From: Thioalkalivibrio sp. ALJ3
GTDB lineage: Bacteria; Pseudomonadota; Gammaproteobacteria; Ectothiorhodospirales; Ectothiorhodospiraceae
NCBI RefSeq assembly: GCF_000377205.1
Contig: NZ_KB897905.1
Location: 124,001 to 188,000 of the forward strand
DNA length: 64,000 nucleotides
Direction: 5' to 3'
Part shown: positions 11,894 through 59,725 of the stretch, in pieces
How positions within the stretch are numbered: the stretch's first letter is position 1
Layout of the letters: the number at the start of each line of letters is the position of its first letter
Notes under the pieces: generated by a model
What the model was told of the DNA's origin: nothing
Seen by the model: only the letters and a program-made list of their open reading frames with translations
The model's database searches: none
Translations under genes and position numbers: made by a program

Positions 11894-13603
11894 ATGCGCG
11901 TCTCGCAATTCCCGCTGAACACCCTGAAGGAAACCCCGGCCGACGCCGAAATCGTCTCCCACCAGCTGATGCTGCGTGCCGGCTATGTCCGGCGCCTGGC
12001 CGCCGGGCTGTACACCTGGTTGCCACTGGGGCTGCGCGTGCTGCGCCGGGTGGAGAACATCGTGCGCGAGGAGATGGACCGCGCGGGCGCGCTGGAGGTG
12101 CTGATGCCGGCCGTGCAGCCAGCCGAACTGTGGCAGGAGTCCGGTCGCTGGGACTTCTACGGCGCCGAGCTGCTGCGCCTGAAGGATCGCCACGAGCGCG
12201 ACTTCTGCTTCGGGCCGACCCACGAGGAAGTCATCACCGATCTCGTGCGCCGCGAGATCCGCAGCTACCGCCAGCTGCCGGTCAACTACTACCAGATCCA
12301 GACCAAGTTCCGTGACGAGCGCCGCCCGCGCTTCGGCGTAATGCGCGCCCGCGAGTTCCTGATGAAGGACGCCTACTCCTTCCACCTGGATGCCGCCTCG
12401 CTGGGGCAGACCTACCAGCAGATGCACGATGCCTACTGCCGCATCTTCGGACGCTGCGGACTGGACTTCCGCGCGGTAGAGGCCGACACCGGCGCGATCG
12501 GCGGCAACGCCTCGCACGAATTTCACGTGCTCGCCAGTTCGGGCGAAGACGCGATCGCCTTCTCCCCGGGCGGCTATGCCGCCAACGTCGAGCTCGCCAC
12601 GTGCCCGAAGCCGGCCCAGGCCCCGCCCCCCAGCGGTGAAATGGAAAAGATCGCGACCCCCGGGGTCCATACCATCGAGGACCTGGCGAACTTTCTCGAC
12701 ATCCCGACCGCACAGACCGTCAAGACCCTGGTCGTCGCCGCCTCCGACGAGGTCGATGCCGATCTGGTCGCGCTGGTCCTGCGCGGCGACCACGAGCTCA
12801 ATGCCGTGAAGGCCGAGAAACACCCGTGGGTTGCCGAACCCCTGCGCATGGCCGAGGCGGCCGAGATCCGTGCCGCCTTCGGCGCCGACCCGGGTTCGCT
12901 GGGGCCCGTGGGCAGTCCGATCCCGGTGCTGGCCGATCGGACCGCACTCGGCATGGCCGACATGGTGGTTGGGGCCAACGAGGACGGCCACCACCTCAAG
13001 CACGTGAACTGGGAGCGCGACCTGCCCAGTCCGGAGAGCGCCGATCTGCGCAACATCACCGAGGGCGAGCCAGCCCCGGACGGCTCCGGCCCGATCGAGA
13101 TCCGCCGTGGTATCGAGGTCGGCCACATCTTCCAGCTCGGGGACAAATATTCGCAGGCCCTGGGTGCGCGTGTGCTCGACGAGGACGGCCGCGAACAGGT
13201 GGTGACCATGGGCTGTTATGGCATCGGCGTCTCGCGCGTGGTCGCCGCCGCGATCGAGCAGAACTCGGACGAGCGCGGCATCTGCTGGCCGACAGCGATC
13301 GCCCCCTTCGACATCGCCCTGTGCCCGATAGGCGCCAAGAAGTCCCAGCGCGTGCGCGAGGCCGCAGAGCAGCTGCACGACGAACTGGAGGCCGCCGGCT
13401 TCCAGGTCCTGCTGGACGACCGCGAACAGCGTCCCGGCGTAATGTTCGCCGACATGGAGCTGATCGGCATCCCGCACCGCCTGGTCATCGGCGAACGCGG
13501 CCTAGACGCCGGCGAACTCGAATACCAGGTGCGCACCGCCAGCGAGGCCGAACACCTCCCGATGGACGGCCTGCTCGACGCCCTGCGCGAACGCCTGCAA
13601 TGA
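11894..13603 (+). CDS. proS: prolyl-tRNA synthetase (bacterial type)
   Basis: A 569-residue class II ProRS of the long bacterial form. Motif 1 lies around [20 protein letters not shown], motif 2 around [21 protein letters not shown] and motif 3 near [15 protein letters not shown], and the C-terminal anticodon-binding domain starts at IALCPIG. A YbaK-like editing insertion occupies about residues 230-385 ([24 protein letters not shown]), which removes mischarged Ala-tRNA-Pro. Size is normal. Confidence 0.98.
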
Positions 13604-13715
13604 CCGCTCGGCGGTCACCGCACCTCGTTCGCAGCCAAGGGCGAGGAAGCAGCGGACGCATATCTGGATCGGCGTTCCATTAGATGTCCCGATACGGCAA
13701 CCGTTTGCGCACTAA

Positions 13716-16279: not shown

Positions 16280-16306
16280 CCATGACCGGCCGCGCCGGGA
16301 GGCCAA

Positions 16307-16591
16307 AGGGAAACACTGATCAATGTACACGCTCGCGCTCGAGTCGCTTTTGCGTACGAACAAGGCGCGGTGACTGCCGTGCAGTCATTCTGCACAAGGG
16401 AACCGCAACGCCGTGCGCGCGCAAAAGCGGCCGAGCCCCGTCTCTCAGTAGCTTGTAGGGGTTGGCACCCCAGGTTCCCCGATTCTGCGTTGCGCCGCTT
16501 GCGGGTAGAACCACTACCCGCTGCCCGACGCGCCTTGTCTCGGAAAACCTGGGGTGCCAACGCGAGTGTGTACATTGATCAGTGTTTCCCT
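16307..16591. repeat. structured palindromic element, copy A (285 bp)
   Basis: Terminal inverted repeats of 31 bases (16307-16337 and 16561-16591, one mismatch) begin AGGGAAACACTGATC. Inside are two blocks shared with copy B at 59495-59725: about 16338-16413 and about 16501-16560. Stems seen: GACTGC/GCAGTC (16372-16386) with the alternative GTGCAG/CTGCAC (16379-16395), CAAGGCGCG/CGCGCCTTG (16361-16369 with 16529-16537) and GCGGGTAG/CTACCCGC (16501-16521). A private stem pairs about 16460-16475 with 16546-16561. The centre differs in length and sequence from copy B. There is no transposase and no plausible gene inside. It lies between convergent genes and ends three bases before the dnaQ stop codon. 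Confidence 0.9.
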
Positions 16592-16594
16592 ACG

Positions 16595-43130: not shown

Positions 43131-43143
43131 AGGGAAACACTGA
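43131..43143. repeat. solo terminal word of the palindromic element
   Basis: AGGGAAACACTGA, identical to the first 13 bases of copy A, lies in the AI-2E transporter/valS gap without a matching partner arm. Probably a remnant or coincidental match. Confidence 0.35.
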
Positions 43144-47043: not shown

Positions 47044-47106
47044 GGGAGGTGCACGGCGCGCCCAGCACCTCCCAAAGGGAAACAATGAGAGTTTCCCCAG
47101 GGAAAC
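47044..47106. other. tandem stem-loops before the polyene cluster
   Basis: Stem 1 is GGGAGGTGC (47044-47052) with GCACCTCCC (47065-47073). Stem 2 is GGGAAAC (47077-47083) with GTTTCCC (47091-47097), followed at once by another AGGGAAAC (47099-47106). They lie 35-97 bases before the carrier-protein GTG. Options are an attenuator, a bidirectional terminator for upstream transcription, or a remnant of the palindromic element, whose ends share AGGGAAAC. Confidence 0.45.
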
Positions 47107-47140
47107 ACTTTCGGATTCCGCCGCTACTTAGGGGAGAGAC

Positions 47141-59494: not shown

Positions 59495-59725
59495 CTAGGG
59501 AGACGCTGATTTAATCGCGCGTCCGCGCTCGAGTCGCTTTTGCGTGCGAACAAGGCGCGGTGACTGCCGTGCAGTCATTCTGCACAAAGGAGCCGCAACG
59601 CCGTTCCCGCGCCCGTTTTTGATCAACAACGGGCGGGTAGAACCACTACCCGCTACACGACGCGCCTTGTCTCGGAAAACAGGGGGCACCAACGCGGACG
59701 TGCAATTAAATCAGCGTCTCCCTAG
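59495..59725. repeat. structured palindromic element, copy B (231 bp)
   Basis: Same orientation and inner blocks as copy A. The arms begin CTAGGGAGACGCTGATTTAAT and are complementary over 32 bases with two mismatches, yet about a third of their positions differ from copy A. Shared stems: GACTGC/GCAGTC (59562-59576), CAAGGCGCG (59551-59559) with CGCGCCTTG (59661-59669), and GCGGGTAG/CTACCCGC (59633-59653). The middle here is a small stem GCCCGTT/AACGGGC (59610-59634). TA flanks GGGAG...CTCCC on both sides. The right arm contains the dacB stop codon (59722-59724). Confidence 0.9.

Follow-up and report, generated by a model that had tools for sequence, protein, structure and literature searches.

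An IS5-type MITE family of Thioalkalivibrio with covarying arms and exchangeable cores

Two palindromic sequences in the genome of Thioalkalivibrio sp. ALJ3 raise the question of how the arms of an inverted repeat can stay complementary to each other when about a third of their positions differ from one copy to the other. Both lie in the stretch that we analyzed, 64,000 nt of contig NZ_KB897905.1 (positions 124,001 to 188,000; hereafter the window), at the places given by the original prediction (copy A at 16307–16591, copy B at 59495–59725), and their limits could be refined to 16309–16589 and 59499–59721 (Table 1). The bases just beyond these refined limits are those of a 4-bp target duplication, which is intact in copy B (CTAG/CTAG) and decayed in copy A (AAAG/CTAC). 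As predicted, left and right arms are complementary, with one mismatch in copy A and two in copy B over the outer 31 positions, and the arms of A differ from those of B at 11 of 31. The inner sequence that the copies share is 94% identical over 89 bp and 83% over 92 bp.

Table 1. Features of the two element copies, in window coordinates
Feature	Position	Strand	Basis
Element copy A, class A arms, canonical orientation	16309..16589	+	ends, cores, orthologous sites
Copy A, left 4-bp target duplication position, decayed (AAAG)	16305..16308	.	YTAR duplication from 149 sites and sequence
Copy A, right 4-bp target duplication position, decayed (CTAC)	16590..16593	.	
Copy A, left arm, GGAAACACTGATCAATG..., IS-left-end type	16309..16337	+	
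Copy A, right arm, 1 mismatch to left arm	16561..16589	-	
Copy A, hairpin unit 1, closed by CGCTTTTGCG/CGCAAAAGCG	16345..16429	+	
Copy A, hairpin unit 2, closed by GCACCCCAGGTT/AACCTGGGGTGC	16465..16557	-	
Element copy B, class B arms	59499..59721	+	
Copy B, left target duplication, CTAG	59495..59498	.	
Copy B, right target duplication, CTAG	59722..59725	.	
Copy B, left arm, GGAGACGCTGATTTAATC..., IS-right-end type	59499..59527	+	
Copy B, right arm, 2 mismatches to left arm	59693..59721	-	

The body of the element is a nested palindrome, in which two related hairpin units, mutually inverted (unit 1 aligns with the reverse complement of unit 2), lie within the long inverted-repeat arms. In copy A, unit 1 holds the motif GTGCAG-TCATT-CTGCAC and the length-variable tip 1, and unit 2 holds the length-variable tip 3. 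Each of the three tips is either short or ∼15 bp longer, which gives total lengths near 270, 285, 300 and 315 bp; compared with the usual 270–315 bp, copy B is internally shortened. When folded as single-stranded DNA, both copies were much more stable than expected from dinucleotide shuffles, with z = −12.3 for copy A and z = −9.9 for copy B; of 200 shuffles, none reached the stability of the real sequence.

Extent and mobility of the family

The element had been described as a two-copy one, which proved far too low. In a pattern scan of the ALJ3 genome, the core pattern alone had 59 matches and the end pattern 152, and the pattern read backwards had none. The ALJ3 genome therefore holds at least 59 copies, and there are dozens per Thioalkalivibrio genome. 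Across the 58 genomes that we searched (ALJ3 and its relatives), further copies were present in congeners, such that 16 of the 30 Thioalkalivibrio genomes, ALJ3 counted, carry the element; no relative outside the genus gave a match. Similarly, when a 33-base core pattern was run against GTDB species genomes, the matches listed came from Thioalkalivibrio strains alone (ALJ21, ARh2, ALJ16, ALE31, AL 2 and others). Element lengths cluster at 270–315 bp, with arms of 31 bp and no coding capacity. As far as could be seen, this is an IS5-derived MITE family of Thioalkalivibrio that is apparently new as a family: no description of it was found in the literature searched, which covered few subscription journals.

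Copies with either class of arms are inserted at YTAR with 4-bp direct duplications (CTAG, TTAA, TTAG, CTAA). The duplication was defined on 149 sites, and in class B the identity of the direct repeats was 0.85–0.96 within the 4 bp and ∼0.4 just outside. Furthermore, we found the precise empty sites that had been suggested as a check, at orthologous positions in congeners where the flanks are well conserved (for example, copies L058 and L071 compared with L235 and L186). These data show that the element has inserted many times, duplicating YTAR, in one part of Thioalkalivibrio. Of the explanations offered at the outset, a non-autonomous element with terminal inverted repeats (MITE) is thus the one that the data bear out, given the short length, the 31-bp arms, the dispersed copies, the 4-bp duplications, the empty sites and the lack of a transposase gene. 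The first empty sites had suggested a parent of the IS630/Tc1-mariner type with a TA duplication, which is ruled out by the non-palindromic 4-bp duplications TTAG and CTAA among the targets; the DDE_3 loci, where no matching pair of ends was found around the gene, count against an IS630-like parent as well. At one locus (L107/L082 in genome G012), an IS630-type (DDE_3) transposase gene directly adjoins an IS5-family copy.

A search for an insertion sequence (IS) with matching ends was successful. Several congeners carry a 1.2-kb IS, inserted at CTAG, in which an IS5-family transposase is flanked by ends like those of the element; its 323-aa transposase frame matches NF033581 (IS5 family, E = 2e-95). 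The ends of this IS are GGAAACGCTGATCAATGG and GGAAACACTGATTTATT, the left one reading ...CTGATCAATG and the right one ...CTGATTTAAT, and the terminal ∼18 bp of the element are common to it. YTAR is the documented target of IS5 (PMC10359306), and we infer that an IS5-family transposase mobilised the element in trans. The claim that no transposase lies near the two copies was correct, and no DDE_3, DDE_Tnp_1 or matching IS5 transposase was found anywhere in the ALJ3 assembly. However, six of its contigs (C1, C2, C3, C7, C8 and C9 of G000) start or end inside or right beside an element. The repeat evidently breaks the assembly, and an unassembled transposase copy in this genome is therefore possible. 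Among the IS copies of congeners, two appear to stand head to tail, one beginning at the end of the other (L092, ∼1313–2518), and in another case an element copy and the IS adjoin at one and the same CTAG (L094, ∼999–2518).

Comparison with this IS clarified the nature of the two arm classes. Over positions 3–20, class A arms match the left end of the IS at 16 of 18 positions and the right end at 13, whereas class B arms match the right end at 16 and the left end at 12, so that one and the same core carries either doubled left or doubled right ends. When arms were typed by diagnostic positions, 81 sites had two left-type arms, 46 had two right-type arms and none had one of each, the remaining sites being undecided on at least one arm. 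Four copies with seemingly mixed arms proved to be either shifted by indels or spurious end pairs. The proposal of two related subfamilies was therefore true but incomplete, as the arm types are the left and the right end of one IS.

Covariation of the arms

Whether the two arms vary independently was set beforehand as the decisive check, and on 145 sites they covaried. We used one copy per site and shuffled the right arms among copies within a class (5000 shuffles), excluding from the mirrored counts positions 1 and 2, which are part of the target duplication. Class A (97 sites) had 126 mirrored variants compared with 31.5 ± 4.1 after shuffling (maximum 47), and class B (48 sites) had 46 compared with 14.4 ± 2.9 (maximum 27), in a test that leaves the relatedness among copies in place. 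The excess held for the arm positions in common with the IS as well as for those beyond. Many of the mirrored variants are private: at positions 6, 12 and 18, just one left arm and one right arm deviate, and in each case both come from one copy. This analysis supports the suggestion that a copying mechanism matches one arm to the other.

Using decay of the target duplication as a proxy for age, which is all it can be, we found 0.80 mirrored variants per copy with a decayed duplication versus 0.26 with an intact one (p = 0.0009); for one-sided variants, the values were 0.78 and 0.66 (p = 0.41). An inherited G/A mismatch between left and right arm is present at position 25 in 39 of 97 class A copies and at position 23 in 20 of 48 class B copies. 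Since this mismatch is kept in ∼40% of copies, transposition itself does not reset the arms, which rules out a reset at each transposition.

Rapid correction in place is ruled out as well, because orthologous arms differ mostly on one side: nearly all differences at orthologous sites were one-sided, with one or two credible cases of a mirrored change in place. Two loci were discounted here, as they inflate the in-place one-sided and mirrored counts (L009, with a one-base arm insertion, and L151, with a different insertion near the site). Few in-place changes from mismatch to match were seen, most of them at position 25, for which conversion from other copies is a further possible source. The rarity of mirrored changes in place implies a process that is slow compared with species divergence; it also implies that many mirrored variants may come from donors whose arms already matched. 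We read arm-to-arm copying as slow and as continuing over the life of the element lineages; inheritance from matched donors contributes, and in this sample is not fully separable from copying.

Exchange and inversion of the cores

The inner part of the element behaves differently from its arms. Between orthologous copies, arms differ by 0.028, cores by 0.066 and flanks by 0.068; between class A copies at non-orthologous sites, the values are 0.13 for arms and 0.10 for cores. Of the 65 copies for which an orthologue exists, 59 have that orthologue among their nearest arms (28 with ties), whereas 15 have it as their nearest core. The nearest non-orthologous core was in the same genome in 24% of cases versus 11 ± 3% expected; mean distances gave no indication of a genome-wide homogenisation of class A cores (0.104 within versus 0.103 between genomes). 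At 21 of 25 sites common to several species, the three tips are in differing states between species. One apparent shared site (L290/L295) was removed as a chance match in a gene.

Cores were also found in reverse. At two sites (L006 and L065), the arms are unchanged and the entire core between them is inverted; at a third (L055), only hairpin unit 2 is inverted in place. In sequence, the flipped cores lie nearer to copies from other sites than to the orthologous ones and may therefore be inverted ectopic conversions rather than simple inversions; conversion in inverted register from a second copy explains them as well as simple inversion does. A CCTGG marker, considered as proof of a simple inversion of unit 2 at L055, was rejected because it is present at several sites. 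Together, these comparisons show that arms are fixed to their sites and that cores are exchanged and inverted. Such a separation of site-fixed, self-matching arms from exchangeable cores is unusual, and it is well supported here.

Mechanism, alternatives and related systems

We consider it probable that the element is an IS5-family MITE in which arm-to-arm copying homogenises the arms and conversion between dispersed copies exchanges the cores. An IS5-type transposase would move the non-autonomous element in trans to YTAR targets. After or between transpositions, the patterns suggest, synthesis or repair may sometimes template one arm on the other, candidate routes being template switching (within a hairpin or from one sister strand to the other) and gene conversion from arm to arm. 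Any mutation that arose in a single arm would then be either erased or copied to the opposite arm, and the arms would thus covary without selection on pairing. In the extreme, such copying could have made the elements with two left ends (class A) and those with two right ends (class B). Conversion between dispersed copies may separately replace a core or invert it in place, and the outer arms, lying beside unrelated flanks, would remain with the site. It has been reported that template switching between inverted repeats yields both arm homogenisation and spacer inversion (PMC8604942), and that it can create and maintain hairpin stems (PMC8794818). A stronger version, in which the element is a two-part entity whose site-fixed arms are an address and whose cores are cassettes, exchanged about as fast as nucleotides are substituted, by a dedicated or transposase-assisted process at the arms instead of ordinary homologous recombination, seems to us very doubtful.

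The covariation could also be a legacy, if the copies descend from many donors with arms already matched and nothing changes in place. At a given site, the mirrored variants are mostly common to all species; most in-place differences affect one side only, and subfamily variants at positions 15 and 16 recur at many sites, all of which would fit. However, this shifts the problem to the donors, as matched private variants still require transfer from arm to arm; moreover, as the target duplication decays, mirrored variants become more frequent and one-sided ones do not, and transposition hands on the mismatches at positions 25 and 23 unchanged. We therefore regard this explanation as unlikely. Selection on arm pairing, with compensatory changes in a structured RNA (a terminator or an RNase III substrate) or in a DNA hairpin, is quite improbable, even though the fold is very stable, the inner stems pair too and both copies in the window sit between convergent genes. 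The arm mismatches would be G-U in an RNA in 53 cases versus A-C in 40 (p = 0.21), with 46 neither, and can therefore be explained without selection on an RNA stem. The structured RNA or terminator that had been proposed finds no backing elsewhere either: no Rfam family reached its gathering score in the window, and the 117 copies with both neighbours called (23 +−, 27 −+ and 67 tandem, by crude gene calls) had no bias towards convergent genes.

Two further alternatives concern the origin of the element. If two IS subfamilies, unrelated and with different palindromic ends, had each picked up the same core, two discrete arm classes on one core would be accounted for. In the IS copies examined, however, a single element carries a left end like class A and a right end like class B, and none of them has two A or two B ends; this origin is highly unlikely. 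The chance that the element is of the REP/BIME type, mobilised by a RAYT (HUH) transposase as also suggested originally, is smaller by far. It is palindromic and present in high copy number, and GTAG-type REPs have been reported from other Thioalkalivibrio (PMC3733652), but the 4-bp YTAR duplication, the long terminal repeats and the matching element with a DDE transposase are all absent from REPs, and ends and duplication are of the IS5-family type. The GTAG REPs are high-copy palindromes of the same genus, yet they are 20–40 bp long, lack a target duplication and have unrelated ends (PMC3733652).

For an IS5-family MITE with the proposed arm copying and with core exchange, other known systems offer partial parallels. 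IS5-family IS and the MITEs derived from them (NF033581) share the 4-bp YTAR duplication and the ends GGAAAC...; like such MITEs, the element lacks coding capacity, and a matching full-length IS is present in congeners. In contrast to these, both arms of the present element copy one IS end and reach ∼12 bp past the IS terminal repeat. Its body, moreover, is a nested palindrome, and its parent IS was not found in the ALJ3 genome. The Correia repeat enclosed elements of Neisseria (CREE/NEMIS), whose target is TA, are also short, high-copy, hairpin-forming MITEs. They differ in their ends, their genus and their target, and in the literature searched we found no description of core exchange with site-fixed arms for them; in-place inversion is reported for them in work cited in a MITE review (PMC10969869). 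Template-switch mutagenesis of quasipalindromes resembles our case in homogenising imperfect inverted-repeat arms and inverting spacers (PMC8604942, PMC8794818), but it is a mutational process rather than an element, and here it would have acted on ∼150 dispersed insertions of one element.

The processes involved are of known kinds, and the useful part is a system for measuring them. With its many copies per genome, shared and empty sites and a proxy for age, the family is a natural measuring system in a bacterial genus: the rates at which palindrome arms are homogenised, loops invert and dispersed copies convert one another are measurable in it. It is also a natural record of the way in which palindromes are kept intact by DNA repair and replication. 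When paired positions covary, this is normally taken as proof of a selected RNA structure. The ∼145 independent insertions, with strong covariation and no sign of selection on RNA, are a clear warning for such tests.

Reduced forms of the element were also observed. Arms-only palindromes of 24–30 bp, with the core absent, are present at the L065 site in G025 and ARh2 (L200 and L199), where other species have a full copy, and they therefore look like deletion products; further ones are found at L122:1140, L127:1601 and 5056, L128:4788 and L133:2882. Within the window, two element-type ends stand back to back at 47076–47112 (AGGGAAACAATGAGAGTTTCCCC), followed by a further partial end, forming an arms-only mini palindrome of the family, and a single element-type end lies at 43131 (AGGGAAACACTGAGGGG), its partner absent. 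On the minus strand at 13599–13644, a decayed piece of hairpin unit 1 (∼78–80% identity) is located directly at the end of a prolyl-tRNA-synthetase-like gene.
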